This document shows, in pieces, positions 8 to 32,738 of a stretch of 53,057 nucleotides of DNA. Each line of letters begins with the position of its first letter. Position 1 is the first letter of the stretch. The translations under genes and the position numbers were made by a program. This DNA is from Syntrophaceae bacterium. Its GTDB lineage: Bacteria > Desulfobacterota > BSN033 > UBA1163. The notes under the pieces are model-generated. The model saw only the letters and a program-made list of their open reading frames with translations. It ran no database searches and was not told the origin of the DNA. The DNA is taken from assembly GCA_013388645.1 (NCBI GenBank), contig JACAEV010000131.1, forward strand, positions 1 through 53,057. Direction: 5' to 3'.

Positions 8-1189
8 TTATGTTTTCCCTTGGACCTTCAGATAGTCTTTCCAGAATGGGGAGATATCTCTTAATCTCTGAATAATTGGGGGAAGGTGTTCGATGATGTA
101 ATCCATCTCCTCTTTTGTATTATAGATAGAGAGGCTGAAACGGATCGAACCGTGAGCCGCAGTGAAAGGAACCCCCATGGCCCTCAGGACATGAGATGGT
201 TCGAGCGAACCGGAGGTGCAGGCCGAGCCAGAAGAAGCGCAGATTCCGAGGTCAGAAAGCAGAAGGAGAATGGATTCTCCTTCCACATATTCAAAGCTCA
301 CGCTCACGGTGTTAGGAAGTCTGTTGAGTCGATCTCCATTGACCAAGGTATTAGGAATTTTCTCCAAAATTTTCGCTTCAAGATAATCTCTCAGGGCTTT
401 GATCCTTGTGTTTTCTTCATCGAGATGGGCTTTAGCTAACTCGCAGGCTTTTCCAAGACCAACGATATAAGGAACATTTTCTGTCCCTCCCCTTCGACCT
501 TTCTCCTGATGACCACCAATCAGAAAGGGTGAAAACTTAGTGCCTTTCCGGATATAGAGAACCCCTATTCCCTTTGGGGCATGGAGTTTATGCCCGGAGA
601 TGGAGAGCATATCCACCTTCGACTTTTTCATATTGAGAGAGATTTTCCCTGCTGCTTGGACGGCATCCGTGTGGAAGGGGATTCCCCTTGCTTTAACAAT
701 CTCACCAATCTCTTCAATGGGAAAGATCACTCCGGTTTCGTTATTGGCATACATAACGCTAACCAGAACCGTTTCGTCGGTGAGGGATTCTCTCAACTCA
801 TCCAGATCTAAACGTCCCTCTCGATCCACAGACAGTTCAGTTACACGATAACCCTTTCGAGCTAAATAGGTCGAGACGTTGTTCACGGCGGGATGTTCGA
901 CTCGAGTGGTAATAAAATGTCGCTTCTCCGGATAGGAATCGAGGGTTCCCAATATCGCTGCATTATCACTCTCTGTCCCACAGCTGGTAAAGACAATCTC
1001 CGATGGTTCTGCACCTAAGAAATCTGCCACCTTTGCCCTCGCTTCATCCACCTTCCTCTGAACCTGTCCTCCAAAAAAGTGCATGCTCGAGGGATTCCCA
1101 TAAAGTTCAGAAAAGTAAGGTAGCATCACCTCTACGACCTCCGGAGCTACTTTTGTCGTCGCATTGTTATCTAAATAGATGGTCTTCAC
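8..1189 (-). CDS. nifS: Cysteine desulfurase, NifS/IscS family
   Basis: MKTIYLDNNATTKVAPEVVEVMLPYF...; PLP lysine motif SISGHKLHAPKGIG; active-site Cys loop CASSGSACTSGSLEPSHVL; adjacent to nifU. Confidence 0.95.
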   Translation of the reverse strand: MKTIYLDNNATTKVAPEVVEVMLPYFSELYGNPSSMHFFGGQVQRKVDEARAKVADFLGAEPSEIVFTSCGTESDNAAILGTLDSYPEKRHFITTRVEHPAVNNVSTYLARKGYRVTELSVDREGRLDLDELRESLTDETVLVSVMYANNETGVIFPIEEIGEIVKARGIPFHTDAVQAAGKISLNMKKSKVDMLSISGHKLHAPKGIGVLYIRKGTKFSPFLIGGHQEKGRRGGTENVPYIVGLGKACELAKAHLDEENTRIKALRDYLEAKILEKIPNTLVNGDRLNRLPNTVSVSFEYVEGESILLLLSDLGICASSGSACTSGSLEPSHVLRAMGVPFTAAHGSIRFSLSIYNTKEEMDYIIEHLPPIIQRLRDISPFWKDYLKVQGKT

Positions 1190-2028
1190 GGCCTGACCTC
1201 CTCCAACTCAATATCGTCGCTCACAAATTCTCTCAATTTTGTTTCCACATACTTTTTCAAGGTAAATTCAGAACTCGGGCAAAAAGAGCATTTTCCCCTC
1301 AGGGCGACATACACTTTATTCCCTTCCACATCGATCAGCTCTAAGTCGCCTCCATCGGCTTTTAAAGCAGGAATGATTTCTCTCCCCAATGTTTCCTCGA
1401 CTAACTTGATTTTCTGGATGTTTGTCAACTTCTTTTTCTCTGCCTTGGGAGGAGGTGCTTCTTTCTCCATCTCCTTTCTCACTTTTTCGATGATCGCCTC
1501 AATCTTGGGATGGCATTGCTCACACCCACCTCCAGCCTTTGTATAATAAGTCACCTGCTCTACCGTCTTAAGATCGTTCTCCCGGATTGCCTTGATGATC
1601 TCTCGATCCGTTACCCCAAAGCATTTGCAGATGATCTCAAAATCCTCTTTAACTACTTTTTCACCACGATAGTTGGCGATGGCAGCCTCAAGCGCTTCTC
1701 TTCCCATGACCGAGCAGTGCATTTTTTCTTCAGGAAGCCCGCCCAGATAGTTAGCAATATCCTGATTGGTAACCTTCAGGGCCTCTTCAAGGGTCATTCC
1801 CTTGATGATCTCTGTGAGGGCGGAAGAGGAAGCGATGGCACTTGCACAACCAAAAGTTTTAAACTTCACATCTTTAATCCGTTTCTTCTCATCCAATTTG
1901 AACGTCAGCCTCAGGGCATCCCCACAAGCCAAGGAACCCACTTCACCGGCTCCGTCTGGATTCTCTATCTCTCCAACATTTCTTGGATTTAAAAAATGAT
2001 CCTTTACCTTTTCAGTGTAATCCCACAT
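1186..2028 (-). CDS. nifU: NifU-type Fe-S scaffold (IscU-like N-domain, BFD-like [2Fe-2S] domain, C-terminal Nfu domain)
   Basis: N-terminal FLNPRNVGEIENPDGAGEVGSLACGDALRL; central CKCFGVTDREI...CEQCHPKI; C-terminal ALKADGGDLELIDVEGNKVYVALRGKCSFCPSS; 4-bp overlap with nifS. Confidence 0.93.
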   Translation of the reverse strand: MWDYTEKVKDHFLNPRNVGEIENPDGAGEVGSLACGDALRLTFKLDEKKRIKDVKFKTFGCASAIASSSALTEIIKGMTLEEALKVTNQDIANYLGGLPEEKMHCSVMGREALEAAIANYRGEKVVKEDFEIICKCFGVTDREIIKAIRENDLKTVEQVTYYTKAGGGCEQCHPKIEAIIEKVRKEMEKEAPPPKAEKKKLTNIQKIKLVEETLGREIIPALKADGGDLELIDVEGNKVYVALRGKCSFCPSSEFTLKKYVETKLREFVSDDIELEEVRP

Positions 2029-2195: not shown

Positions 2196-2360
2196 ATGAA
2201 ATTAGACAAAGAGACTTTGATTGATCTGATCTGTAAGCATTGTGATTTCTATAAGGAATCCGATAAGGATCTGGAATGTGGAGCTTACAAAATCTTGAAG
2301 GGACTCTTAGATAAAAAGATCATCACCCCTGAAGAGATCTCTGATGCCCTCCGAGAATAA
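2196..2360 (+). CDS. 54-aa Cys-containing small protein in the radical SAM locus
   Basis: My translation: MKLDKETLIDLICKHCDFYKESDKDLECGAYKILKGLLDKKIITPEEISDALRE*. Upstream GAGAGG; its end overlaps the start (2344) of the radical SAM gene, which supports translational coupling. Absent from the supplied ORF track. Confidence 0.7.
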   Translation: MKLDKETLIDLICKHCDFYKESDKDLECGAYKILKGLLDKKIITPEEISDALRE

Positions 2361-3510
2361 ATTTATCACACTGACGCCTCACACCGCTTTAAAAAATCTT
2401 GAGAAACCCTATCTTTACGACATTCAGAATGACGAAATCTATGAACTGAACAGCGATGCCTATCAATTTCTCCTTAAATTGTGTAGGGGCGAAAAACCCT
2501 CTGTCCGAAAAGAGGATGAAGCATTTATCCAATTTTGTCTCTCTGAAAATTTAATCGCCTTTTCAGAAACGCCTCTTCAGAGAAAAATGCCCTTGAAGCC
2601 GTCCCCCATCCCTTCGCTTCGTTATCTCGAGCTCCAAATCACGAATCGGTGCAATCTCCAGTGCCGACACTGTTATCTCGGAGAGAGCTCCCATCGGGAT
2701 CTTTCTTTGAAACGAATTCAAAAAGTGTTAGAAGAATTTGAAGAAATCCAAGGCTTGAGGCTCCTCCTCTCCGGAGGGGAACCTTTACTCCATCCTCATT
2801 TTTGGGAGATGAATGATATTCTGCGAAATTATCCATTCCGATCTGTTCTTCTTTCGAATGGCACATTGATTACCGAGGAGGTTGCCAAAAGGTTACGCGT
2901 TCATGAAGTTCAGATCAGTCTTGACGGGATGAGAGAGGGCCACGAAACCCTTCGAGGAAAGGGAACCTTCGAAAAAACCATGATGGCCATAGACCATCTC
3001 CAAAAAGTCAACCTCAAGGTATCGGTGGCCACGATGATTCATCGTAAAAATTTATCAGAATTCGACCAGCTTGCGTCTTTCATTAAATCCAAGAACATTG
3101 AGGAGTGGAATGTGGATGTTCCTTGTGTGGAGGGAAGACTGAAAGCAAACCAGGAGTTTTGGGTTTCGCCCTCCGAAGCAGGCCACTATCTGGGTTACGG
3201 TTACGGAGGAGGATTTCATGGGTCAAAAAATAATTTTACTTGCGGAGCCCATCTTTGTGCTATAATGGTAGACGGGACTATTTGTAAGTGTGGCCTTTTT
3301 AGTGAGGAACCAGTAGGATCGATTGAAGAGAGTCTTCGGAAAGGGTGGGAGCGTGTCCCTCGCATCCTCCTAAAAGACCTCACTTGTAAATGCCCAGTGA
3401 TGGAGGAGTGCCGGGGCGGTTGCCGTTACCGGGCTAAAGTTCAAGGTGATTTGTTTCAACCGGACCTCTTTCAGTGTTATGCAAGAGGGATCTTGAAAGG
3501 AGGTGAATGA
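2344..3510 (+). CDS. Radical SAM/SPASM peptide-maturase-like protein with PqqD/RRE-like N-terminal region
   Basis: Radical SAM motif ITNRCNLQCRHCYLG; SPASM-type Cys-rich C-terminus CGAHLCAIMVDGTICKCGLF...CKCPVMEECRGGCRYRA...FQC; N-terminal YLYDIQNDEIYELNSDAYQFLLKLCRG resembles PqqD-type peptide-binding domains. Confidence 0.9.
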   Translation: MPSENKFITLTPHTALKNLEKPYLYDIQNDEIYELNSDAYQFLLKLCRGEKPSVRKEDEAFIQFCLSENLIAFSETPLQRKMPLKPSPIPSLRYLELQITNRCNLQCRHCYLGESSHRDLSLKRIQKVLEEFEEIQGLRLLLSGGEPLLHPHFWEMNDILRNYPFRSVLLSNGTLITEEVAKRLRVHEVQISLDGMREGHETLRGKGTFEKTMMAIDHLQKVNLKVSVATMIHRKNLSEFDQLASFIKSKNIEEWNVDVPCVEGRLKANQEFWVSPSEAGHYLGYGYGGGFHGSKNNFTCGAHLCAIMVDGTICKCGLFSEEPVGSIEESLRKGWERVPRILLKDLTCKCPVMEECRGGCRYRAKVQGDLFQPDLFQCYARGILKGGE

Positions 3511-3511
3511 T

Positions 3512-3574
3512 ATGACCATCAAGAAGGTGGCCAAAAACTTCTCCGCTCTTTGCAAATGTAAAGCATCTTGTTAA
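3512..3574 (+). CDS. Putative 20-aa RiPP precursor peptide MTIKKVAKNFSALCKCKASC
   Basis: ATG at 3512 with strong SD AAAGGAGGTG at 3497-3506, directly after the radical SAM stop; basic N-terminal leader-like half and C-terminal C-x-C-x3-C at the very end; TAA at 3572-3574. Confidence 0.65.
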   Translation: MTIKKVAKNFSALCKCKASC

Positions 3575-3585
3575 AGCGTTCTTCG

Positions 3586-3618
3586 AGGGGCTTCTTCTCA
3601 AGAAGAGAAGGAGCCCCT
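3586..3618 (+). terminator. Strong hairpin between candidate precursor peptide and ATP-grasp-like gene (terminator/attenuator or processing site)
   Basis: AGGGGCTTCTTCTC-AAGAA-GAGAAGGAGCCCCT, 14-bp arms with one mismatch; no immediate T-run, so attenuation rather than full termination is possible. Confidence 0.5.
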
Positions 3619-3685
3619 ACTTTGCAGGAAAAAGATTGAAAGAAAAACCACAGGTCTGATGACCTGTTTTTTTTATATATCAAAA

Positions 3686-4597
3686 ATGTATCTCGGAATT
3701 GACTTTCTCATCACTTCCGAACTCAAGCTCTACCTGGTGGAAATAAATGTAGGTCTCCCCGGTGGCGCCCACGAATATCATCTCGCTCATCGGGTTCATT
3801 TCGGAAAACCTTCGGATATTTTTACACGGATCGAGCGGACCTCACGAAAAATTTACGGAAAGACATTTAAAGATTACCTTCACTCACTTCCCTTCATTGA
3901 GAGTCTCAAACCACTCAAGATATGGATGGATGGAATGGGACCCCTTCCAAAAACCTTCCATCCGGGATTGAGGCTTGAAGATAAATGGAATCAGTACCAA
4001 TTGATCCATCCCATCGCACCCATGCCTGAGACGATTATTTTTGACCCGGAAGATTTAATCGGAGCCGAACGCTTCATCGAAAGAAAGAAAAAGGTTGTTC
4101 TGAAGCGACGTGTGGGAAGAGGTGGAAGGGATTTTAAGGTGATCTCGGAACCGTTCGCTTTACGGGATTCACCTCCCCCCATTCATCACTATCTTCTCCA
4201 GGAATATGTTGAAAGCAAGATCAATGGATATAGTTTATCTATCCGGGCTGTTGCATTTGGAGGAAAATTCATGTGCATGTATGCCAATCTTTCTACAAAA
4301 ACCTATTCTAATCATGGGAACCTATTCTTTATCTCACCTGGAACCTACTTTGGATTGAGCAAAAAGAATTTTAAGACCCAATCCTTCAATCAAAAATCAT
4401 GGGAGGCCAAGATATGGTTTGGCGAAAATGAGCCACCCTATTTGAAACACAATCTTTATGAAGATGATGTGGCAAAGGCAACACTCTTTATTCCTCCGCC
4501 CATTTTAAAAACAATCAAAGAACTAACTATAAAAGTTGAGAGATTTTATGATAGCTTAGACCTCCTTAGCTTACCAAAAGCCTGCTTCGAAGATTAA
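3686..4597 (+). CDS. ATP-grasp-like protein (possible peptide ligase/tailoring enzyme; apparent permuted motif order)
   Basis: MYLGIDFLITSELKLYLVEINVGLPGG resembles the ATP-grasp C-terminal catalytic motif; KKVVLKRRVGRGGRDFKVI and YLLQEYVESKINGYSLSIRAVAFGGKF resemble the central/N-terminal ATP-grasp motifs. The track's ATG at 3659 is probably upstream of the true start. Confidence 0.6.
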   Translation: MYLGIDFLITSELKLYLVEINVGLPGGAHEYHLAHRVHFGKPSDIFTRIERTSRKIYGKTFKDYLHSLPFIESLKPLKIWMDGMGPLPKTFHPGLRLEDKWNQYQLIHPIAPMPETIIFDPEDLIGAERFIERKKKVVLKRRVGRGGRDFKVISEPFALRDSPPPIHHYLLQEYVESKINGYSLSIRAVAFGGKFMCMYANLSTKTYSNHGNLFFISPGTYFGLSKKNFKTQSFNQKSWEAKIWFGENEPPYLKHNLYEDDVAKATLFIPPPILKTIKELTIKVERFYDSLDLLSLPKACFED

Positions 4598-5622: not shown

Positions 5623-5755
5623 AGTCCATAATTGAAAAGACATAATCTTCTGAAAATCTCCCCTTATCCCTCTTTGCCAAAGAGGGGTAATTCCTCCCTT
5701 TACAAAAGGGAGGGAAGGAGGGATTTGGTCTTCAATGTCCATACAATTATGGACT
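5623..5755. repeat. MITE-like element, family 1, copy 1
   Basis: Terminal inverted repeats AGTCCATAATTG (5623-5634) and CAATTATGGACT (5744-5755); internal palindromes CCCTCTTTGCCAAAGAGGGG and CCTCCCTTTACAAAAGGGAGG. Confidence 0.85.
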
Positions 5756-5845
5756 GATTAGTAATTCGTCGAATGGATGATAAACTGAGACTGTGCCGCT
5801 ATGTGTTAAGTCCCTATCGGGGAGTGTTATGATGAGGAGGAAGCC

Positions 5846-7013: not shown

Positions 7014-7343
7014 TTATTGACTTAACTTCGAGCTGGCAAGACGATTCAGACTGACTCCAGACTCTGCTGCTTGGATTGCAAGTTTTCGATGAATTTGCGG
7101 AGGAACCCGCACGATGAATTTGCCGCTGTAATGCCTGCAGGCGATTGGCTCAGGAATAGCTTCACCTTCTTTATGCATATCCTTCACGACATCTTCAACT
7201 AATTTACGGATCCCTTTTAAGGCTACTCCTGGAGTCTTAGCGAGCCAACTTAAGCTGGGAAATTCAGCACACAACCCTACATACTCGTTATCGTCTTCAG
7301 ACCAGGTTACGCGATAGGTATATCGATCATTTTTCAAAGCCAT
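7014..7343 (-). CDS. hicB: HicB-family antitoxin
   Basis: YTYRVTWSEDDNEYVGLCAEFPSLSWLAKTPGVALKGIRKLV (HicB fold) plus RHH-like C-terminus GKFIVRVPPQIHRKLAIQAAESGVSLNRLASSKL. Confidence 0.9.
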   Translation of the reverse strand: MALKNDRYTYRVTWSEDDNEYVGLCAEFPSLSWLAKTPGVALKGIRKLVEDVVKDMHKEGEAIPEPIACRHYSGKFIVRVPPQIHRKLAIQAAESGVSLNRLASSKLSQ

Positions 7344-7557
7344 AACCTACCTCCAATCTTTCAATAGCCAACAGCACCTGTTTCACCTGGTATGCCTTGG
7401 CTTTTCCTTTATGGTTCTGAATATTTATTCGGGGATCACCCTGCCATGGGGTTTTATAAATTCGATGACTGCTCCCGCCTTGACGAGGTTCACCAAAAAA
7501 ATGATCACATACCTTACATAGTTCGCTGAATCGAACATCTCTTGGATTTCGCCACAT
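7327..7557 (-). CDS. hicA: HicA-family toxin
   Basis: VCDHFFGEPRQGGSSHRIYKTPWQGDPRINIQNHKGKAKAYQVKQVLLAIERL; GSSH catalytic-His motif; overlaps hicB. Confidence 0.88.
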   Translation of the reverse strand: MWRNPRDVRFSELCKVCDHFFGEPRQGGSSHRIYKTPWQGDPRINIQNHKGKAKAYQVKQVLLAIERLEVGYGFEK

Positions 7558-8300: not shown

Positions 8301-9357
8301 GTGAAAGAGAGAATATTACCTGAGTTCCAGGACTTTCTCCTTTCCCGTTCTCTTGTTCCTGAAAAGAATGTGTCTTTTTATGCTTATTGGGTAAGTAAAT
8401 TCTTGGCTTTTTCAAACCGAAATGAGGATCTCGGGCCTGATCTGAGGTTTCAAAAGTTCTTAAACCAGTTGAAATCACAAAAGAAGATAGCTGATTGGCA
8501 GATCAGACAGGCAGAGGAGGCGCTCCGACTGTATTTTCATCATTTTCTGGATGGTAAAATCTCAATACTCTCTCCCAACCTCCCACAAAAAAGCTTCCCG
8601 ATCCTTCGGAAATCTTTGTTGAAGTGCGTGAAGCGATACGCATCAAGCATTATTCTTACAGAACGGAACGTTCTTATATGGACTGGGTTGAAAGGTTTTT
8701 TCATTACATCTCTCAGGTAAAAAAGAAAGATCTTCATCTTGCTGGCTTAGACTCAGGCGATGTAAAGGATTTTCTGAGTTACCTGGCATTAACAAAAAGG
8801 GTCTCATCCTCGACCCAAAACCAGGCCTTCAATGCCCTTCTGTTCCTTCTCAGGGATGTGCTGAAGACAGAGCTTGGTGATTTGAGTAAAACAGTCAGGG
8901 CAAAGCGCGGACAAAGATTACCAGTCACTTTGTCTCCAGAGGAAGTTCAGGAGTTATTTCCCCACTTACTAAGGAGTCCATAATTGAGAAGACATAATCT
9001 TCTGAAAATCTCCCCCGCCCCTCTTTTCCAAAGAGGGGTCATTCCTCCCTTTGGCAAAGGGAGGGAAGGAGGGATTTATCTTTGATGTCTACACAATTAT
9101 GGACTGATTAATAAAACGGTTCAGAATGCCGTAAAAGAAGCTGTGAGAAAGGCAGGCATTGTCAAGCATGCATCGGTGCATACTCTCAGGCACAGCTTTG
9201 CCACACATCTTCTAATGGAGTGAATATCAGGGAGATCCAGAATTTACTCGGTCATAAACATCTTGAAACCACAATGGTCTATACCCATGTGTTAAGAGAT
9301 ATGGTGAGCGTTCCAAAAAGCCCCCTTGACAATCTTTACAACAAAAAACCTCTTTGA
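8301..9357 (+). pseudogene. Integron integrase (IntI-type tyrosine recombinase), decayed
   Basis: VREAIRIKHYSYRTERSYMDWVERF...STQNQAFNALLFLLRDVL...VRAKRGQRLPVTLSPEEVQELF // [35 protein letters not shown] ... NIREIQNLLGHKHLETTMVYTHVL...KSPLDNL. Frameshift at the A6 tract near 8585, MITE-like insertion with loss of the central catalytic region at 8975-9105, further frameshift near 9215. Confidence 0.9.
8975..9105. repeat. MITE-like element, family 1, copy 2 (inside the integrase pseudogene)
   Basis: AGTCCATAATTG at 8975-8986 and CAATTATGGACT at 9094-9105; same internal palindromic core as copies 1 and 3. Confidence 0.88.
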
Positions 9358-15165: not shown

Positions 15166-15300
15166 AACCAGATCCTTCTTTCGCGAGAAAATTTTATGAC
15201 CATGTCCCTGCCTATCGTAGACAGGAGAAACAAAGATTTTAAATCCTAAACTCGAACCCCTAAACTCTAATCAAGCTCAAATGTCCGAAACACAAATCTT

Positions 15301-15427
15301 CAATTGAAAAGACATATCGTTCTGAAAATCTCCCCTTATCCCTCTTTGCCAAAGAGGGGTAATTCCTCCCTTTACAAAAGGGAGGGAAGGAGGGATTTGA
15401 TCTTCAATGTCCATACAATTATGGACT
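15301..15427. repeat. MITE-like element, family 1, copy 3 (left terminus truncated/diverged), between E1 alpha and E1 beta genes
   Basis: CAATTGAAAAGACAT...same core...CAATTATGGACT at 15416-15427. Confidence 0.82.
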
Positions 15428-22818: not shown

Positions 22819-24123
22819 TCAGATTGATTCAGATTGAAATATCTCCCGTTTTTTTTCCTCTTTCTCTGTTTCCCAGATGGAGATCACAGGAAAAAACTTT
22901 GAAAATAAGATGATGGCTAAAGTGAATCCAGCGCAGAGACCAGCCATCATTGACCACTCCACCCATGAAGGCATGTAAGCACCTCGCACATAGGGAAGCC
23001 GAGGTTCACTTAAGGTGGGGATGATGATGAGGTAGCGTTCCAACCACATCCCGATCAGAACGGAGATGGAGGTGATCGATGTTCCCAAAATAGTCCTTGT
23101 CCTTTTTAACGCAAGGATGGGAAAGGGGATGATAAAACAGAAGAGGACCATCAGCCAGAAAAGAGGTGAATATTTTCCTGCCATTTTTGACCAGAAGACA
23201 GCTAACTCATCAACCCCTCCGCCATAGAACGTCGTAAGATATTCGGCAAGAGTAAAATAAAACCAGAGAAGCGACATGGTGAGGAGCAGAAGTCCCAGGT
23301 TGTTGAAATGGATGGGGTGGAGGTAGTCTTCCAGGTGATAAACCCTCCGTAAAATGGCCGCCACAAGAATAATGGCAGCAATTCCCGAATAGATGGCACC
23401 TGCCACGAAATATGGACCGAAGATCGTTGAGTGCCACATGGGTTGTGTCTGCATCCCAAAAACCCAAGAGACGACGGTATGGACACTCACCGCAATAGGA
23501 ATGACAGCGATGCAGAGAAAGGTAGAAGCCTTTTTCAGTATTCGCTCCTGCCTCTCCGTCCCCCTCCATTCTAACGAAAGGAGTTGATAGACCCATTTTC
23601 GGCGTGGAAAATGATCTCGGAGAAGAGCAATATCAGGGATCATCAGCACATAGAGAAACACAACGCAGGTAACGAAATAAGTCATGATACAGGTGAAATC
23701 CCAAAGGAGCGGAGATCTGAATTGAGCATGAATGGCAACCCAATGAAACTTAATAGAACGGCCCAAGTCAAAAAGGATATTGGTCGGACCCGCTGCTAAG
23801 GCGAAGACCGTCACCACCTCTGCCGCACGCGTAATGGGGGTTCTCCATCCCGCATTTGTTATTCTTAAGATGGCAGAGATGAGTGTCCCAGCATGACTGA
23901 TTCCGATGAAAAAGACAAAATTGACAAGATAAAAAGCCCAGGACATGGGATGACCCATACCCGTCACTCCCAGACCCCAAACATATTGCCAACCAAAGGC
24001 AAAGAAAGACCAAGAAAAGAGGATGGCGAGGGGAATAACGGTCGCCCAGAATGGCCATCTCATCTGAGTCAATGGGGCAAAGATTTGGCGATGTCTTTGG
24101 GCAATGGTTTCGCTATCCCCCAT
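22819..24123 (-). CDS. NrfD/PsrC-type integral membrane subunit (ActC/QrcD-like)
   Basis: MSWAFYLVNFVFFIGISHAGTLISAILRI; SVHTVVSWVFGMQTQPMWHSTIFGPYFVAGAIYSGIAAI; about 10 TM segments; context with FeS, MopB and cyt c. Confidence 0.88.
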   Translation of the reverse strand: MGDSETIAQRHRQIFAPLTQMRWPFWATVIPLAILFSWSFFAFGWQYVWGLGVTGMGHPMSWAFYLVNFVFFIGISHAGTLISAILRITNAGWRTPITRAAEVVTVFALAAGPTNILFDLGRSIKFHWVAIHAQFRSPLLWDFTCIMTYFVTCVVFLYVLMIPDIALLRDHFPRRKWVYQLLSLEWRGTERQERILKKASTFLCIAVIPIAVSVHTVVSWVFGMQTQPMWHSTIFGPYFVAGAIYSGIAAIILVAAILRRVYHLEDYLHPIHFNNLGLLLLTMSLLWFYFTLAEYLTTFYGGGVDELAVFWSKMAGKYSPLFWLMVLFCFIIPFPILALKRTRTILGTSITSISVLIGMWLERYLIIIPTLSEPRLPYVRGAYMPSWVEWSMMAGLCAGFTLAIILFSKFFPVISIWETEKEEKKREIFQSESI

Positions 24124-24808
24124 TCCATTCCCCTTCCTTTAAATAATAAACCTTGGGTTCTGTCCCCATTTCTTCCAACAATCTGAAGGCTCGGCGGCTC
24201 TTGGAGAGTTTTGAGACCTGACTCTTTGAGTCATTGAGATCTCCAAAATAGATTGCCTCGCTCGGGCAGGTCTCTACGCAGGCAGGAATAACTTCCCCCT
24301 CCCTAATCCTTCGTTTCTCCCTTTTGGCTTTCTCTTTTGCCTTACGAATCCTTTGAATACAAAAGTTACACTTTTCTGTAATTCCTTTTCTTCGTTGGTA
24401 AACATCCGGGTTGAACCCCTTTTTATATTCTTCCGGCCAGGTGGGTTCATACCAGTTGAAATATCGAACTGAATAGGGACAGTTGGAGATGCACATTCGG
24501 ACACCAATACATCGGGGATAAACTTGTGCCACGATCCCTTCTGGATTTTTGTATGTGGCCGCGACAGGACAGACAATCGTACAGGGTGGACGGTCACAAT
24601 GCATACAGGGGATGGGAATAAAGCGCATCTCCACATCTGGATAATTTCCTTTTACTTCTGAAACGAGATTCATCCAGAACTTCGCCCTTCCTAATTTGGA
24701 TTCTTTCTCTCCTGCAAAGGAGACGTTATTTTCCTGGCGGCAAGCTATCACACAGGCCTGACAGCCTGTGCATTTATCTAAATCGATGACCATCCCCCAT
24801 CGGTACAT
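24113..24808 (-). CDS. Ferredoxin-type multi-FeS subunit (ActB C-terminal-part/QrcC-like)
   Basis: CTGCQACVIACRQEN; CMHCDRPPCTIVCP; third motif CIGVRMCISNCPYSVRYFNWYEP (one Cys replaced, 3Fe-4S-like); CNFCIQRI...CVETCP. Confidence 0.9.
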   Translation of the reverse strand: MYRWGMVIDLDKCTGCQACVIACRQENNVSFAGEKESKLGRAKFWMNLVSEVKGNYPDVEMRFIPIPCMHCDRPPCTIVCPVAATYKNPEGIVAQVYPRCIGVRMCISNCPYSVRYFNWYEPTWPEEYKKGFNPDVYQRRKGITEKCNFCIQRIRKAKEKAKREKRRIREGEVIPACVETCPSEAIYFGDLNDSKSQVSKLSKSRRAFRLLEEMGTEPKVYYLKEGEWNGG

Positions 24809-24899
24809 ATCAACCTCATGTCTGTGTCTGTCCTCCGTGTGCGGGGTTAGATGAGAACATCAAATCCGCAATCTGCATTCCGAAATCCAAAATTACAAA

Positions 24900-27284
24900 T
24901 TATGCTTTATACACCTTCACTCTCGTTGAAAAGGGAGAAACAAATCCACCCAGATAGTCGTATTCTCTCACGAGTATATCATTTGGGTTCATTCCTCTTC
25001 CTTTCGCCCAGCGGCCATAAGCCTTGTGACCCTGTCCATAGGGTATATGGATGACATTTGGATGTGCCCCAGGGAAGACCCGTGCTTTCCCTCTCAATTT
25101 TCCTGTATTCGACTCCACCCAGATGAAGTCTCCGTCCTGAATCCCCATCTTCTGTGCAGTTTCTGGATTGATCTCAACCCAGGAGTCCCATTTCTCTTTC
25201 AAATGAGGACCTAAGATCTCTTGGAGGAAAGGCTGATTGGCTCCTCTCCCTTCTGCTGTGGTCATCAGTTTATAGTGAATGAGGTAGAATGGAAACTCCT
25301 TCTCTTCACCAACCCATCTGGGTCGTTCAAAATGAGGAAGAAAGACTTTGTCTCCTCTCGCTTCCACTTTCATCTCTTTTAATATTTGATCCAGTCCTTT
25401 TCTATTCCTTTTCGATACCTCCTTTAGAGCTCGTTCCATGGTTAAGGAGTAGAATTCAAATTTTCCTGACGGAGTATTAAATTTCTCTCGCCATTCCCCA
25501 AATGGGTAAAAAGAATCCCACCAACCGCCTCGCTCGATTAAGACTTTCCAGAATTCATCAAAATCTTTTGCTTGGACAGATCCTCGTTTCGTTACAAAAA
25601 TCCCTTTGGTCGCTTCCTTCAAAGCTTCTTGAAAATCTTTCCAGGGAAAGGACTTCCCCACGCTTCCACCTATTCTTTTGGCGATATGAATGATGACATC
25701 CCCTGTATTACGGGTGTCATAAAGGGGTTTGTCAAGCGTGGGACTGCGCAATCCAAACATTGGGAAACCCAGCCCGGGCTCCACATGATCATCCTGCCAT
25801 CGCTCGAAATAGGTTCCGTCGGGAAGCACGAGATCTGAAAACATCGTCGTCTCATCCATAAAGGGTGAAAAACTGACGATGAAAGGAATCCTTTCGATGA
25901 CATTTCGAAACGTCTCCGGCTCAGGAAGGCTAAAGAGTGGGTTGGTATAATAAAGCAGAAGTGTGTCGATCGGATAAGAAGTACCTTTTTGAATTCTTTC
26001 CAGAAGGTTTGAAGGAATTTCATCAGCAAAAGGAAATGGAAGGTTTCCTGCTCCATCCAATCGAGGCTTGGAAAGGCTTTTTTCTGCAATCCCGTCTCTT
26101 TGAATAGCAGGCCATTTTTTGAAAGGAGGTTTTCTTTGAAGAAGGACACCCCCGGGATGATCGATGGAGCCCACCAGCGCATTGAGGCAATCCACAGCCA
26201 TCTGTGCATAGGTCCCATTGGTCTGCATCCCTACCCCTCTGCCGGTAATGGCAATGGAGGGTAGATGAGATGAAAATTCTTGGGCAATCCGAGCAATCGT
26301 CTCTTCGGGGACTCCGGTTAACGAGGAAACTTGTTTGGGGGAATATTCCTTGAGGACGAGGGTCTTAAAACCCATATGTGTTTTTCCATCGCTGTCTTTC
26401 CAATCATTGAATCCAAATGTATAACGATCAATAAACGGATAATCATATTTTTTCTCTTGAATGATCCAATAGGCGATTCCCAAAGCCAACGCTCCGTCTG
26501 TACCCGGCTGGATGGGAACCCACTGGTCAGCCTTCGATGCGGTTACAGAGAATCGCGGCTCAATCTGAACCATCTTTCCCCTGATCCCGGGTCTTCCTCT
26601 TCTTAGAAATCCATACCCCCATAGGTTTCTCAACGAAGGCCTCGACGCTTCCAGAAGACTGGTTCCAAAGGAGAGAACATAATTCACCTTCTCCCAATGA
26701 GTGGCCAGAAAGTCTTTTACACCCATGGTGAAGAGATGACCTTTCAGGATGCCTTCCGATCCCCTAACAGGATTTCCAAGATGATTGGGAGAACCATAGG
26801 CTTCCATGAATCGCGCCATCAATTCAGCCATGTGGCCACGATACCTCCCTCCCAATAACATCAGATGATGAGGGTTTCCTTCTTGGCGGAGGGTCTTCAA
26901 TCTCTGGGTGACAAGGTCTATTCCTTCCTCCCAGGAAATCTTCTCCCAATTTCCCTCCCCCCGTTTTCCTTTTCTTTTTAAAGGATGACGGACTCGGTCG
27001 GGATCGTAAAGGACCTGAAGTCCAGACTGTCCCTTTGGACAAAGCCGTCCTTTATTGATGGGATAATCTTTGATCCCTTCCAATTTAACTGGCCAACGCA
27101 TGATCGACCGAATTCGAAGCCCGCAACCCCCAGGGCATTGAAGGCAGATGCCTGTTGACCAATACTCCTCATATGGAATCCATTCTCCTTCCTTGGGCAG
27201 GGCGTGGAGAAGTTCCTCCGGCAGAGTCATCCCGAAAGTAGCTGCCCCGATCAGTTTCAGTAATTGTCTTCGGTTAATTTTCAT
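24900..27284 (-). CDS. Molybdopterin-oxidoreductase-family (MopB) subunit with TAT-like N-terminus
   Basis: NRRQLLKLIGAATFGMTLPEELL; CLQCPGGCGLRIR...GRLCPKGQSG; VNYVLSFGTSLLEASRP; MopB-type C-terminal domain. Confidence 0.9.
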   Translation of the reverse strand: MKINRRQLLKLIGAATFGMTLPEELLHALPKEGEWIPYEEYWSTGICLQCPGGCGLRIRSIMRWPVKLEGIKDYPINKGRLCPKGQSGLQVLYDPDRVRHPLKRKGKRGEGNWEKISWEEGIDLVTQRLKTLRQEGNPHHLMLLGGRYRGHMAELMARFMEAYGSPNHLGNPVRGSEGILKGHLFTMGVKDFLATHWEKVNYVLSFGTSLLEASRPSLRNLWGYGFLRRGRPGIRGKMVQIEPRFSVTASKADQWVPIQPGTDGALALGIAYWIIQEKKYDYPFIDRYTFGFNDWKDSDGKTHMGFKTLVLKEYSPKQVSSLTGVPEETIARIAQEFSSHLPSIAITGRGVGMQTNGTYAQMAVDCLNALVGSIDHPGGVLLQRKPPFKKWPAIQRDGIAEKSLSKPRLDGAGNLPFPFADEIPSNLLERIQKGTSYPIDTLLLYYTNPLFSLPEPETFRNVIERIPFIVSFSPFMDETTMFSDLVLPDGTYFERWQDDHVEPGLGFPMFGLRSPTLDKPLYDTRNTGDVIIHIAKRIGGSVGKSFPWKDFQEALKEATKGIFVTKRGSVQAKDFDEFWKVLIERGGWWDSFYPFGEWREKFNTPSGKFEFYSLTMERALKEVSKRNRKGLDQILKEMKVEARGDKVFLPHFERPRWVGEEKEFPFYLIHYKLMTTAEGRGANQPFLQEILGPHLKEKWDSWVEINPETAQKMGIQDGDFIWVESNTGKLRGKARVFPGAHPNVIHIPYGQGHKAYGRWAKGRGMNPNDILVREYDYLGGFVSPFSTRVKVYKA

Positions 27285-27406
27285 TATCGATCGTCAGTCG
27301 AGAGATGTAAAGCGTTGGAGATCACTTTTTACTCCTAACCCCTTACCTTCTTAGATCTATTTTCACACGATGCACTTTGCTCCATGTTCTCTCCGATTTT
27401 CTGCGA

Positions 27407-27958
27407 TCAGCTCGAGTGGCATGTATAACAATCGTTGCTCGCCCCTCTTTTTTGGTGGCAGTCCATGCACCACTCCATATAGTTTCTGTCAACCATCTGG
27501 ATGGGTCTTTCCTTCACACCAGTAAAACCGTGGCAAACGGAACAGTTCACCTTATTCTGGATGTGAATCCAGTGAGGGAAAACAACAAATTTTGGAAGTT
27601 CATACATACGGTTCCATGGAATTTCCCTATTTGCCTTCACATAGTCGATCACTTTCAATGCCTCAGGTCGCTTGCTCATGACATCCGTTGCATGGCAGGC
27701 ACGACAAAGCTCAATGTTTGGGATCCCTGCAGCACGATACCTTTCTATATACCGATGGCAGAAGGAGCAGTTTAATTGAACCGCCTCTTTGTGATGGAGG
27801 TGATTGAAAAGAACGGGTTGATCCACAGAGATCCAACTAAAAATTGGAAAAATTGAATAAAAAATGGATTCGGTTTGATAACGATAGCGATAATAAACAA
27901 ATATGGAGAGAATGACGATGATCAAAATAAAAATTAAAAAAGCGAGTTTCTTTTTCAT
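27407..27958 (-). CDS. Membrane-anchored pentaheme cytochrome c (ActA/QrcA-like)
   Basis: Five CxxCH motifs: CSFCH, CRACH, CSVCH, CMDCH, CYTCH; N-terminal TM anchor. Confidence 0.9.
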   Translation of the reverse strand: MKKKLAFLIFILIIVILSIFVYYRYRYQTESIFYSIFPIFSWISVDQPVLFNHLHHKEAVQLNCSFCHRYIERYRAAGIPNIELCRACHATDVMSKRPEALKVIDYVKANREIPWNRMYELPKFVVFPHWIHIQNKVNCSVCHGFTGVKERPIQMVDRNYMEWCMDCHQKRGASNDCYTCHSS

Positions 27959-28269: not shown

Positions 28270-29136
28270 TTAATAAAATAGATGATCCACGGTGAGCAAG
28301 ATCATCACCACCAAAGCATAGGAGTTTATGCTTTTGAAATGGAACTCCGAAGAAAATGGGTGGTAAGGGGCGCTAATTAATTTCAAAGATTTCCACAACA
28401 GCCAAAATGCAATAAAAAATAAACTCCCATGGATCAGATGAGATTCCACCATCCCAAATAGGGGCATCATCATACAGGCTGCTGCGGTCGCAAAGATCCA
28501 GATGAAGGTAATCCGACTGAGTTGTAAAGAAGTAAATATTCTACTGAGTGAAGGTAGTCCAGCTTTCTCATAATCCCTTCCGAATTTTAATAGGAGAAGC
28601 CAGAAATGAGGCACTTGCCATATAAAAAAGAAAAACGATATGGCAAGGATGGGTGGGTCAAGCGAAAAAAGACCTTTCCCGGAAACCCAGCCTATTAATG
28701 GAGGAATAGCACCAATCAATGCTCCTGGGATGGCAGCAAAGGCAGTCTTTCTCTTTAGCAAGGTGTAGAATCCGTTGTACCAAAGCATGGCGAAAAGCCC
28801 TAAGCCCAAAGCCGACTTAGGGGCACCTAAAAGAAGGATAACAGATCCGAATAGTAGGAGGCTAATTGAAAATGTTAAGGCTGCCGATGGAGATAGTTTC
28901 TTTGAAGGGATCGGGCGTCCTCGGGTTCGATCCATCCGTTGATCATGCTCTCTCTCCTGGTATTGATTGAGGGCACAAGAACCGGAGGCGAGAAAAAAAA
29001 CACCCAGGATCGGGAGGATTATTTCTGTAGACCATTCTCGGCGGGAGAGGATGAATCCTGTAGAAGTGGAAAGGGTTGAAAAAAAGGCAATTCTGAATTT
29101 GACCAATTCTAAGAGAATCCTTGTCCATTTTGCCAT
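28270..29136 (-). CDS. ctaB: Protoheme IX farnesyltransferase (heme O synthase)
   Basis: NQYQEREHDQRMDRTRGRPIPSKKLSP; FFFIWQVPHFWLLLLKFGRDYEKAGLPSL. Confidence 0.93.
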   Translation of the reverse strand: MAKWTRILLELVKFRIAFFSTLSTSTGFILSRREWSTEIILPILGVFFLASGSCALNQYQEREHDQRMDRTRGRPIPSKKLSPSAALTFSISLLLFGSVILLLGAPKSALGLGLFAMLWYNGFYTLLKRKTAFAAIPGALIGAIPPLIGWVSGKGLFSLDPPILAISFFFFIWQVPHFWLLLLKFGRDYEKAGLPSLSRIFTSLQLSRITFIWIFATAAACMMMPLFGMVESHLIHGSLFFIAFWLLWKSLKLISAPYHPFSSEFHFKSINSYALVVMILLTVDHLFY

Positions 29137-29148
29137 GACTATCGCTCG

Positions 29149-30069
29149 TTATTTCAAATCCTTAATATAGTGGACAAGTTCAGTGAGTTCATCTTCCGTC
29201 AATGCCTGGGGGGGCATAATAGGAGGATAACCTACGACCACATACGTATTCGGCTTCAGTATATATGTCCTAATAAAGGCCTCATCTGCTATTACCGTCT
29301 GCTCCTTTCCGTCTATCAATACCCTCTCTTCTTTACCAAATAAACCCTTAAGAGTAGGACCCACCCTTGGAGTTCCGTCGACGCTGTGGCAAGCTACACA
29401 CCCTTTTTCATGGAAGAGCTGAGCTCCACCCGGTTTCCCCTTAGTCGCTTCTATTTCTTTCCCCCTCTTTTGAATCCACTGATCAAACTCATCTACAGGA
29501 ATTACCACAATCTTCGTGACCATATTGGCATGTTGCAGTCCACAATACTGCGTACAGAATACATCAAATGTCCCCACTCCGGTTGGCTGAAACCATAATG
29601 TATTGGTCATCCCTGGCACCACATCCTGCTTAATTCTGAATGCCGGTGCATAGAAACCATGAATCACATCTTGTGAAGTAAGCGATAACTTGACCGGCTT
29701 TCCCACGGGGACTTTTAGCTCCGTACTTTTCACACCATTTTCATACTCAAAAAGCCAGGACCACTGCCGTGCAATCACCTTGACTTTCAGAGCATCACCA
29801 GGAGCCTTTTTCAAGAAATTAAAGCCCGTCAACCCATAATAAAACATGGCCAGAACCAGGAGCGTGGGGACGATGGTCCAAATGATTTCAAGCCAGATGT
29901 TTCCATGAATATCAGAGGGTTGAGGATTTCTCTTCTTCCTATACCGGATCACAAAATAGACCATTAAAAAGGTGATCAGGCCGAGGAGGAAAACAGTGAT
30001 GGCCAGAATGAAAAAGAAAACTTGATCAACGACTTCTCCGGATAAACCCGTCGCCCACGAAACGAACAT
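29149..30069 (-). CDS. coxB: Cytochrome c oxidase subunit II with fused cytochrome c domain (caa3 type)
   Basis: CuA motif CTQYCGLQHANM; DVIHGFYAPAFRIKQDVVPG; C-terminal heme motif GCVACHSVDGTPRVGPTLKGLFG. Confidence 0.94.
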   Translation of the reverse strand: MFVSWATGLSGEVVDQVFFFILAITVFLLGLITFLMVYFVIRYRKKRNPQPSDIHGNIWLEIIWTIVPTLLVLAMFYYGLTGFNFLKKAPGDALKVKVIARQWSWLFEYENGVKSTELKVPVGKPVKLSLTSQDVIHGFYAPAFRIKQDVVPGMTNTLWFQPTGVGTFDVFCTQYCGLQHANMVTKIVVIPVDEFDQWIQKRGKEIEATKGKPGGAQLFHEKGCVACHSVDGTPRVGPTLKGLFGKEERVLIDGKEQTVIADEAFIRTYILKPNTYVVVGYPPIMPPQALTEDELTELVHYIKDLK

Positions 30070-30081
30070 GATCGTTTTTCC

Positions 30082-30369
30082 TCAACGAAAAGCCACGTCA
30101 GAAAATGTCAATCCGATAAACACCGTCAGGGCAGCCAGAACAATTGGAATCATGAGTTTAAAGAGCAGCCCTGTTTCATATTTGAGATGCATGAAGTAAC
30201 TGAGCACCAGCCCGGATTTGATGGCGGCGATGATCAGGACGATGGCGATGCTCAGAAGACCTAAATCCATCCCTGCCATGGATACGGTGATCCCTGTTAA
30301 AATCACTAATGCCAGCCATACAAGAATATAGGTTCGATACTTTCTATTCTTCATGGATAATTCTTTCAC
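30082..30369 (-). CDS. Cytochrome c oxidase subunit IV-like protein
   Basis: Three-TM small protein, AIKSGLVLSYFMHLKYE motif, position in cox operon. Confidence 0.82.
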   Translation of the reverse strand: MKELSMKNRKYRTYILVWLALVILTGITVSMAGMDLGLLSIAIVLIIAAIKSGLVLSYFMHLKYETGLLFKLMIPIVLAALTVFIGLTFSDVAFR

Positions 30370-30410
30370 CCCTGATTCGTTTTCTTATTCCCCTTTTACG
30401 AATAAAAGGC

Positions 30411-31007
30411 TTATGTGATTAAGTAAAATAATGGGAAGAGGAAGATCCATATAATATCCACAAGATGCCAGTACAATCCGGTGTTCTCTAAGGGAACGAA
30501 GCGATGTTCATTGATCTTCCCTTTCATCACCAAAACCAGCATCGCAGAAAGAATAAAAAGGCCTATCAGCACATGGAGACCATGCAATCCCGTCATGGAA
30601 TAATAAAGACCAAAGAAGAGAATCTCCCCTTTGCTGCGGCCTAAGAGACGGGGGGAATTGGGATAAAGGCCATGTCCAATCTTGGCCGTCCATTCTACAT
30701 ATTTAATTCCAAGAAATAGAATTCCTAAAAAAATGGTAGCCAACAGGAAAAGCCCCGATAATCTGCGGTTCCCTTTTTGGACGAAGAAGATGGAAAGGAC
30801 AATGGATAAACTGCTGGTGATGAGTATGAGGGTGTTGAATGTGCCGAGGACTCGATCCAGTTCCCATGCGGCAAGATGAAAATCTATGGGATTTTTGTAA
30901 CGGTAAGAAGAATAAAGAATAAACAACCCTCCAAACAGAAGTATTTCTGATAGGAGAAAGAGCCACATCCCGATTTTTGAGCCCATATCGTCCCGATGCG
31001 TTTCCAT
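30411..31007 (-). CDS. coxC: Cytochrome c oxidase subunit III
   Basis: KIGMWLFLLSEILLFGGLFILYSSYRY; YSMTGLHGLHVLIGL; YWHLVDIIWIFLFPLFYLI. Confidence 0.94.
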   Translation of the reverse strand: METHRDDMGSKIGMWLFLLSEILLFGGLFILYSSYRYKNPIDFHLAAWELDRVLGTFNTLILITSSLSIVLSIFFVQKGNRRLSGLFLLATIFLGILFLGIKYVEWTAKIGHGLYPNSPRLLGRSKGEILFFGLYYSMTGLHGLHVLIGLFILSAMLVLVMKGKINEHRFVPLENTGLYWHLVDIIWIFLFPLFYLIT

Positions 31008-31118
31008 AACAATCTTCGTGATTCTTTAACCCAAATGGCTATTCTATAGTTTCAGGGTTTATCTCCCAAGATTTTCGCCCGAACCTTTAAATCCCGGGCT
31101 CCTTGAACCCTTTAAGGA

Positions 31119-32738
31119 TTATCCAAATTCATATGGCCCTTTTCCCACAATGGGAATTTTTTCAAAATTATGGGTGGGTGGAGGTGAAGGAATTTGCCAT
31201 TCCAGGGAGGCTCCTTTCCACGGATTATCTTCTGCCTTTTCTCCTCTCCGGAGACCTTGAATGAGATTGAAGAATATCCAAATCAGCCCAGCGATGAGAA
31301 TCCAAGACCCGATGGTTGAGATGAGATGAAGCGTATGGAACGGAGGGGGGTAGTCATAATACCTCCTGGGCATTCCTTCCCAACCCAGAATTAACATAGG
31401 AAAATAAAGAATGTTAAATCCGATGAATAAAATGATCCACCCTCCTATGGTTCGTTTCATGTCATACATTTTTCCAAACATCTTTGGAAACCAGTAGTGG
31501 AGGGCGGCCAGGAAGCCAAACCCCATCCCCCCAAAAATGATGTAATGAAAATGCCCGACGACCCAGTAGGTATCATGGAGATGCATATTCACCGCAAGGG
31601 CCCCTTGGATCAAACCGGTCAGCCCTCCAATAGAAAAGAGAAAGATAAACGTGAGGGCAAACAGAAGGGGTGGCTTTAATTCAATCGAACCTTTGTATAA
31701 TGTCGCCACCCAGTTGAATACCTTGATCGCACTGGGAACGGCGACTAAAAAAGTCAGCAGGGAAAAGATCACGCTGGCGAAGTCGCTCTGTCCGCTGACA
31801 AACATATGGTGACCCCAAACCAGGGAACCCACGCTGGCAATCGCAATGCTTGAAAAGGCAATGGCTTTATATCCGAAAATATTTTTCCTAGAAAAAACAG
31901 GGATCACCTCAGAAACCACCCCCATGGCTGGAAGGATCATGATATAGACCGCCGGATGGGAATAAATCCAGAAAAGATGCTGGTAGAGAAGGGGGTCCCC
32001 ACCTTTGGCAGGGTCGAAAACACCTATACCAAAATATCTTTCGATCATGATGAGGGCGAAAGTAATTCCAATGACGGGTGTGGCAAGAATTTGAACCCAG
32101 GCTGTGGCATAAACTCCCCACACAAAAAGAGGGAGACGAAACCAGCTCATACCAGGGGCTCGAAGCCGATGAGTCGTCGTTACGAGATTGACTCCAGTCA
32201 GGATCGAGGACATCCCCAAAATAAAAACTCCAAAAACCGCAAGGGGAACATTAACGGTCGTTCGTAGGCTGTAAGGGGCGTAAAAAGTCCAGCCCGTATC
32301 AATAGGCCCTCCCGCAGTAAAAAGGGAGAGAAAAACAATTGCTGCACCAGAGGCATAGAGCCACCAGGAGAGGAGGTTGATCTTAGGGAAAGCCATGTCC
32401 CTGGCGCCGATCTGGATCGGTAAGAAGAAGTTACCGAAGATCGCCGGAATAGCTGGGATGACCACCAGAAAGATCTGGATGATTCCGTGCAAAGTAAAAA
32501 TGGCATTGTACATCTGCGGTTTCATCAGGGGAAACCCCGGAGCAATCAGTTTCAACCGCATCAGAAATCCAAAGAAGACAGCCACGGAGAAGAATAAAAG
32601 GATCAAGCCAAGATAAAGCAGACCGATTCTCTTGTGGTCCGTTGAAAGAATCCATGCAAGGATTCCACGATACTTCCCCTGATGATCATAAAAACTGGCG
32701 GCGGGATAGGTTTTCTCCAATACCCCATTTTGGGTCAT
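31119..32738 (-). CDS. coxA: Cytochrome c oxidase subunit I
   Basis: Heme/CuB ligand motifs WIYSHPAVYIMILPAMGVVSE, WGHHMFVSG, HDTYWVVGHFHYI; FTLHGIIQIFL. Confidence 0.96.
   Translation of the reverse strand: MTQNGVLEKTYPAASFYDHQGKYRGILAWILSTDHKRIGLLYLGLILLFFSVAVFFGFLMRLKLIAPGFPLMKPQMYNAIFTLHGIIQIFLVVIPAIPAIFGNFFLPIQIGARDMAFPKINLLSWWLYASGAAIVFLSLFTAGGPIDTGWTFYAPYSLRTTVNVPLAVFGVFILGMSSILTGVNLVTTTHRLRAPGMSWFRLPLFVWGVYATAWVQILATPVIGITFALIMIERYFGIGVFDPAKGGDPLLYQHLFWIYSHPAVYIMILPAMGVVSEVIPVFSRKNIFGYKAIAFSSIAIASVGSLVWGHHMFVSGQSDFASVIFSLLTFLVAVPSAIKVFNWVATLYKGSIELKPPLLFALTFIFLFSIGGLTGLIQGALAVNMHLHDTYWVVGHFHYIIFGGMGFGFLAALHYWFPKMFGKMYDMKRTIGGWIILFIGFNILYFPMLILGWEGMPRRYYDYPPPFHTLHLISTIGSWILIAGLIWIFFNLIQGLRRGEKAEDNPWKGASLEWQIPSPPPTHNFEKIPIVGKGPYEFG

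Follow-up and report, generated by a model that had tools for sequence, protein, structure and literature searches.

In the bufferins, oxazolins and methanobactins, cysteines of a ribosomal peptide are modified for copper chelation by multinuclear non-heme iron-dependent oxidative enzymes (MNIOs); one enzyme pair may serve several precursor genes, and precursors are seldom encoded in its absence (PMC12452194). In this work we compare with these and other described systems a locus (positions 2196-4597) lying in a stretch of 53,057 nucleotides (nt) from Syntrophaceae bacterium (assembly GCA_013388645.1, contig JACAEV010000131.1), the whole of which is referred to as the window. The locus embeds four genes, coding for a 54-residue CxxC protein, a radical S-adenosylmethionine (SAM)/SPASM protein (hereafter the maturase), a Cys-containing peptide of 20 residues, and an ATP-grasp-like protein. 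An original prediction, based on the sequence of the window, had considered them a candidate undescribed locus for a ribosomally synthesized and post-translationally modified peptide (RiPP).

The likeness to the MNIO-made copper RiPPs concerns the Cys-bearing ribosomal peptide, the possible service of several precursors by one enzyme and the tie between precursor and enzyme. However, those systems rely on an MNIO (DUF692) enzyme and a partner protein, and the precursors of bufferins and oxazolins are equipped with a Sec signal, whereas here we find a radical SAM/SPASM enzyme and a 20-residue peptide devoid of signal, for which metal binding is suggested by the genomic context. Inspection by eye of the gene lists, whose entries were not scanned systematically for this family, revealed no MNIO gene. 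The SCIFF/CteB, SkfB, AlbA and PapB systems share with our locus the radical SAM and SPASM domains and a Cys-bearing peptide, and their RRE-like (RiPP recognition element) domain has a plausible counterpart in the predicted fold of the maturase; nevertheless, the maturase described here falls far below the NCBIfam cut-offs, its peptide is much shorter, no exporter accompanies it, and a Cys-rich partner domain and a cupin are added. A very short and near-invariant precursor served by a SPASM maturase is also typical of PqqA/PqqE and of mycofactocin (MftA/MftC), but the core residues differ and the downstream processing genes were not seen. CruR/DUF2946 is likewise a small Cys-containing open reading frame (ORF) of copper operons; CruR, however, is about 145 residues long and exported, has CXXC and RAPP arrest motifs and lacks a maturase (PMC9426467), whereas our peptide is often the last gene of its operon and needs a maturase gene in the genome. 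Finally, an ATP-grasp-like gene near a small peptide, as in the window's family, recalls the graspetides, although this gene is not conserved with the peptide family and the peptide of the window has no Asp/Glu acceptor.

Co-occurrence of the maturase and the 20-residue peptide

The firmest claim supported by the data is that of a single functional unit, formed by the radical SAM protein and the 20-residue peptide together with a Cys-rich partner domain. The maturase is present in 38 of the 396 genomes of the window's phylum, in 80 of the 245 Nitrospirota genomes and, at E <= 1e-60, in 1 of the 199 genomes of the Desulforamulus phylum; at the same threshold no member was found in the 199 genomes of an Acidobacteria-type phylum. 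Many of the genomes compared are probably metagenome-assembled. Within Nitrospirota, the peptide pattern was retrieved in 65 of the 80 maturase-bearing genomes and in 1 of the 165 maturase-less ones (Fisher test, p = 2e-43; this and the other Fisher tests treat related genomes and loci as independent, so that the p values overstate certainty). The only exception among the 165 is genome G637, whose contig C89 harbors two CKCHxSC peptides (positions 1876 and 3603) with no maturase detected. The peptide counts make use of a strict pattern, so that absence from a genome can mean divergence; since the pattern occurs in 66 of the 245 Nitrospirota genomes and its reversed control in none of them, a chance origin is excluded.

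The two genes are physically linked in most loci, and a peptide that is missing next to the maturase usually turns up in another part of the genome; G012, G005 and eight Nitrospirota genomes are examples. None of the seven maturase-less genomes of the window's family (f1) contains it. An encoded precursor with an enzyme linked to it, one of the marks by which a RiPP is recognized, was thus found, in agreement with the idea of an undescribed RiPP-like maturase/peptide pair.

Conservation of the peptide

The 20-codon ORF of the window is a genuine conserved gene. The family comprises more than 60 aligned members, nearly always of exactly 20 residues, with the consensus M-[KT]-I-K-K-[VI]-x-[KR]-x3-[GT]-[LT]-C-K-C-x-x-S-C-stop, in which positions 9-11 are free; the N-terminal half is basic (M-x-I-K-K-V-x-K) and the C-terminal end is CKCxxSC. 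Where it was found in the 42 oriented loci from the window's phylum and the 40 from Nitrospirota, the peptide has exactly this length, the one exception being a 19-residue copy (L218), and most of these homologues are preceded by a strong Shine-Dalgarno (SD) sequence. Across 64 copies, I3, C14, K15, C16 and C20 are invariant and S/T19 is nearly so, while the codons of the conserved residues vary freely, with frequent synonymous changes. The ratio of nonsynonymous to synonymous change (pN/pS) is 0.13-0.23 in close pairs, and the peptide is under purifying selection at the amino-acid level.

A tblastn search of relatives placed the 20-mer beside nearly every close maturase homologue and, unexpectedly, also upstream of distant ones. 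The peptide lies downstream of the maturase in the window's family, in Nitrospirota and in the Bacillota-type locus L296; in most of the remaining Desulfobacterota-type families its position is some 400-1,500 bases upstream of the enzyme gene. The original prediction depended on a Cys peptide being conserved at homologous loci and on its ORF being constrained; the former is present there, and the latter is borne out by the pN/pS values. The comparison with the short-peptide families of NCBIfam (geopeptide, CbpA, SbtA and others) that it had recommended gave no match at E <= 1 for either MTIKKVAKNFSALCKCKASC or MKIKKVVRTQRGLCKCKSSC, hidden Markov models (HMMs) being weak on 20-mers.

The radical SAM/SPASM enzyme

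The assignment of the maturase to the radical SAM/SPASM proteins holds. It matches PF04055 (E = 1e-22) and possesses the cluster motif CNLQCRHC (CX3CX2C), whose three Cys are invariant in 28 members. In the same 28 members the seven Cys of a complete SPASM domain (C300, C316, C348, C350, C356, C360 and C378) are also invariant; the spacing C300-X10-G-X4-C316 fits the pattern CX9-15GX4C ... CX2CX5CX3C ... C, the first spacing of the second motif being CXC in the window and CXXC in other members. The AlphaFold2 model is of high quality (predicted local distance difference test, pLDDT, 92) and its best Foldseek matches over the whole chain are two RRE-bearing RiPP maturases, SkfB (the top match) and SuiB, PqqE being a fold neighbour as well. 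In NCBIfam the protein lies far below every cut-off, including those of the StsB, CcpM, PapB and AlbA models; with the PqqE and MftC models the scores reach 54-87 bits, where the cut-offs stand at 381 and 265. For the maturase of L173 the top model is the mycofactocin maturase. In the AlphaFold2 model, the N-terminal region of 85 residues has a bbbb-aa-b topology, with pLDDT mostly above 80, that resembles an RRE (winged helix-turn-helix-like). PADLOC returned pVip matches, which we rejected because they cover only the generic radical SAM core; no fitting defence family emerged.

The Cys-rich domain, the cupin and the ATP-grasp-like protein

As for the partners of the maturase, neighbouring genes were named by profile match or, for some, by eye, and a codon-score gene caller was used in GC-rich loci. 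The 54-residue protein of the window is a stand-alone short form (motif ICxxCDFYKESDKDLECGAxKIL) of a larger Cys-rich domain (CxxxCxYYKPGKxExxxCxG ... CxxCxFxxxxCDF ... PCGG), and an HMM of the full-length domains matches it with E = 3e-5. The domain is either fused to the N-terminus of the maturase or encoded beside it in 39 of 42 Desulfobacterota-type loci, some lineages having it as an upstream gene of its own; fusions with the maturase occur in L154, L160 and L173 and fusions with a cupin in L230 and L242, and the gene is divergently oriented in 9 of 40 Nitrospirota loci. About 21 Desulfobacterota-type loci harbor, 3' of the maturase, a cupin with a His-rich tail. Apart from a weak match to Cupin_2, neither protein could be named with Pfam or NCBIfam, and PADLOC likewise gave no name for the Cys domain. 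The general partners of the maturase are the Cys domain and, at many loci of Desulfobacterota type, the His-tailed cupin, and the inclusion of the 54-residue gene in the system is well founded, given the HMM match and the fusion or adjacency of its domain to the maturase.

The situation of the ATP-grasp-like gene is different. Its product scores 28.4 bits with PF02655, above the gathering score. The N-terminal segment GIDFLI...EINVGLPGG resembles the usual C-terminal ATP-grasp motif, and the N-terminal residues align to C-terminal positions of the PF14397 and PRK12458 profiles; it is possible that the protein is circularly permuted, a profile-level hint because the AlphaFold2 model, built with only 7 sequences, has a pLDDT of just 38. 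A profile search of the PDB with this protein found nothing. In the window's family the gene occurs in 9 of 10 maturase-bearing genomes and in 0 of 7 others (p = 4e-4), and in G007 it is unlinked from the peptide locus; among the 59 relatives searched, distant carriers of the same peptide included, it was not detected outside the family. Its distribution marks it as a lineage-specific accessory lying outside the core system, and its proposed place in that core has to be abandoned, since it accompanies the maturase in the window's family only. A second, broken run of the 54-residue, maturase and ATP-grasp genes, with in-frame stops and frameshifts, was observed in L178 (G006:C81), an intact copy being present elsewhere in that genome.

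Metal-related neighbours of the peptide copies

Many Nitrospirota genomes contain an additional peptide, unlinked to the maturase, in which position 17 is His (or Tyr), that is CKCHxSC (H-type). Such copies lie in copper/heavy-metal operons, a link that the original prediction did not contain. Of the 16 unlinked loci of this kind that we inspected (L275-L290), 14 carry a gene for a P1B-ATPase no more than about 3.5 kb away, which is the case for 0 of 82 maturase loci (p = 4e-15); in a fifteenth (L284) a gene of similar kind is found at 3.8 kb. The ATPases of L276, L280, L282, L283, L285, L286, L288 and L289, as well as that of L296, all exceed the cut-off of TIGR01511, the NCBIfam model of copper-translocating P-type ATPases. 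The H-type loci also harbor Met-rich exported proteins and YHS-thioredoxin-reductase-like proteins; L282 includes a CopA-like multicopper oxidase and L290 a MerR-family regulator with FeoB. L296 presents, one after the other, a CopA-type ATPase, a separate 76-residue Cys domain adjoining the maturase, the maturase itself, a CKCHASC peptide and a terminator.

Among the K-type loci, metal-related neighbours are scattered: ZnuA with a Fur-type regulator (L143), ZIP (L147), a Peripla_BP_2/BtuC-FecC-like ABC transporter (L157) and ArsP_1 (L150). These neighbours and the His-rich tails of the cupins may lend weak support to a link with metals, since the former were counted without a formal background rate.

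Proposed function and alternative explanations

The reading that we favour, and that we regard as fairly likely, is that of a RiPP-like system in which the maturase modifies the 20-mer to give an intracellular soft-metal ligand, most likely of Cu(I). The MxIKKV segment would serve as the recognition sequence and would be bound by the RRE-like domain of the maturase; 5'-deoxyadenosyl radical chemistry, assisted by two SPASM auxiliary clusters, would then modify the CKCxxSC core, as the enzyme family to which the maturase belongs suggests, most likely through a thioether or another Cys-centred modification. The product might buffer the metal or hand it over; such a role is proposed because H-type copies sit in copper operons and because of the gene order of L296. 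The CKCHxSC peptides inside copper-efflux operons would depend for their maturation on the single maturase, acting in trans, and the ATP-grasp-like protein and the His-tailed cupin would act as lineage-specific accessories. A more specific version, in which a radical-SAM-dependent intracellular copper-buffer RiPP, with several 20-residue CKC(K/H)xSC peptides activated in trans by one maturase and its Cys-rich partner domain, represents an oxygen-independent counterpart of the MNIO-made bufferins and methanobactins, common in Nitrospirota and Desulfobacterota-type bacteria, is put forward tentatively, as a possibility that stops short of being probable.

Several observations weigh against the favoured reading. 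About 11 small Nitrospirota genomes, which account for most of the unexplained cases and look like one group (L246, L248-L250), possess the maturase but no recognizable peptide; in L246, L248, L249 and L250 no 20-mer was recognized within 5 kb or, by pattern, genome-wide, and these genomes may hold a diverged substrate. H-type peptides stand beside the maturase in L151 and L165 with no copper ATPase nearby, and the unlinked H-type locus L293 also lacks such an ATPase. Most K-type loci are not beside metal genes, and many of those of Nitrospirota adjoin, as judged by eye, genes resembling superoxide dismutase, rubrerythrin or tetratricopeptide-repeat lipoproteins. No exporter or protease is conserved among the neighbours. 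Lastly, profile searches of the PDB and Pfam recognized no RRE at the maturase N-terminus; the PqqD/RRE-like region of the original prediction is plausible from its predicted fold.

The CxC motif is a natural Cu(I) ligand. The peptide might therefore act unmodified, as a mini-metallothionein or as a metal- or cysteine-sensing leader ORF that controls neighbouring genes, with the maturase acting on another substrate. H-type peptides often precede the genes of copper operons by 30-300 nt, and copper-responsive upstream ORFs do exist, as exemplified by CruR (PMC9426467). However, in the window's family, in L296 and in Nitrospirota the peptide is behind the maturase, and in the first two it leads nothing, because hairpins or a terminator come next. 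The MxIKKV segment and the fixed length are maintained, selection acts on the amino acids, and no RAPP-type arrest motif is present. Against a leader role speak the frequent position of the peptide as the last gene ahead of a terminator and its dependence on the maturase gene, which holds for unlinked copies too; we consider an unmodified peptide an unlikely explanation, although the least so among the alternatives. The short peptide could instead be cannibalized to a small molecule, a redox or radical cofactor, as in the case of PqqA/PqqE or mycofactocin. A very short, near-invariant peptide paired with a SPASM enzyme, the fold neighbourhood of PqqE and the model that tops L173 speak for it, and a cofactor would account both for the retention across phyla and for the oxidative-stress-like neighbours in Nitrospirota. 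Yet processing genes of the PqqB/C or MftC-F type were not seen among the conserved neighbours, the core holds three Cys rather than Glu/Tyr or Val/Tyr, and the clustering of H-type copies in copper operons is unexpected for a general cofactor, which renders this possibility quite improbable.

Given its restriction to maturase-bearing genomes within the window's family, the ATP-grasp-like protein might be a graspetide-type ligase working with the maturase on the same 20-mer. We find this very doubtful: distant relatives carry the same peptide without it, the peptide of the window offers only Lys, Ser and Thr and no Asp/Glu acceptor, and terminator-like hairpins part the two genes in the window, while in G007 they are not even linked. 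A conventional secreted thioether RiPP, that is, a sactipeptide or ranthipeptide bacteriocin or signal, would fit a SPASM radical SAM enzyme with a Cys-rich peptide and SkfB and SuiB as nearest folds. Nevertheless, the near-invariance of the peptide between phyla, which sets it apart from antagonistic peptides, and the lack of conserved transporter, protease or immunity genes disfavour a bacteriocin, and the maturase misses all NCBIfam sactipeptide and ranthipeptide cut-offs widely; such a role appears highly improbable.

If the product is indeed a copper ligand, as in the reading favoured here, then radical SAM chemistry can make metal-handling RiPPs, so far mainly a role of MNIOs, and anaerobes or microaerobes would gain a counterpart to the MNIO copper RiPPs. 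The system adds a family of radical SAM RiPPs that is apparently still uncurated and whose precursor ranks among the shortest and least variable known. It is spread over about one-third of the sampled Nitrospirota genomes, about one-tenth of those from the window's phylum and at least one genome of Bacillota type, and it assigns a role to three otherwise unnamed genes (encoding the 20-mer, the protein with the Cys domain and the His-tailed cupin). We found no Pfam or NCBIfam family and no paper on this system or on a radical SAM copper RiPP, in a body of literature that omits most subscription journals; within these sources the gene combination is as unfamiliar as the original prediction had held.

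Organization of the locus and other features of the window

The features of the locus are listed in Table 1. The four ORFs on the same strand and the overlap of the 54-residue ORF with the following start were verified in the sequence. The 20-codon ORF with its SD behind the maturase is likewise present, the SD lying inside the maturase end and the ATG (3512) one base past the maturase stop. Two hairpins are found between the peptide and the ATP-grasp-like gene; therefore, the unit consists of the 54-residue, maturase and peptide genes, and the ATP-grasp-like gene is probably transcribed apart from it. The latter starts at 3659 in the program's ORF list, but all homologues align from 3686, and the candidate ATG at 3659 falls within the terminator-like hairpin.

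Table 1. Features of the locus in the window, with the grounds for each.
Feature	Position	Strand	Basis
54-residue CxxC protein	2196..2360	+	ORF overlaps the maturase start
Radical SAM/SPASM maturase, 388 residues	2344..3510	+	PF04055, Cys motifs, fold
Shine-Dalgarno AAAGGAGGTG of the peptide gene	3496..3505	+	Sequence; within the last codons of the maturase
Putative 20-residue precursor peptide MTIKKVAKNFSALCKCKASC	3512..3574, stop included	+	Conserved family, co-occurrence with the maturase
Strong hairpin, 14-bp perfect stem	3586..3618	+	-26.6 kcal/mol, z = -4.7; probable mRNA 3' structure
Terminator-like hairpin, then T run ACAGGTCTGATGACCTGTTTTTTTT	about 3650..3674	+	Folding and sequence
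ATP-grasp-like protein	3686..4597	+	PF02655; start from alignment of homologues

Divergently from the maturase operon, the window encodes at 8-2028 (- strand) a NifS/IscS-like cysteine desulfurase and a NifU-like scaffold with a C-terminal NifU domain. NifS/IscS-like and NifU-like genes likewise adjoin the locus in L139-L141, and in two Nitrospirota loci (L212 and L213) a NifU-like gene is located upstream. Further away, at 28270-33559 (- strand), a cytochrome c oxidase-like cluster (heme O synthase and subunits II, IV, III and I, by eye) places copper enzymes about 25 kb from the peptide; it includes a possible SCO-type protein, and NCBIfam gave no name to the protein encoded at 32735-33559. 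By eye, the genes at 24113-27958 (- strand) look like portions of an alternative complex III or molybdopterin-type respiratory complex, and a pair of HicB-like and HicA-like ORFs, also identified by eye at 7014-7557 (- strand), might represent a toxin-antitoxin module. Finally, a short, repeated, palindromic-looking element of the CCCTCTTTGGCAAAGAGGGG type, possibly a miniature inverted-repeat transposable element or similar to a repetitive extragenic palindrome, occurs at 5632-5757, 8984-9085 and 15277-15414.

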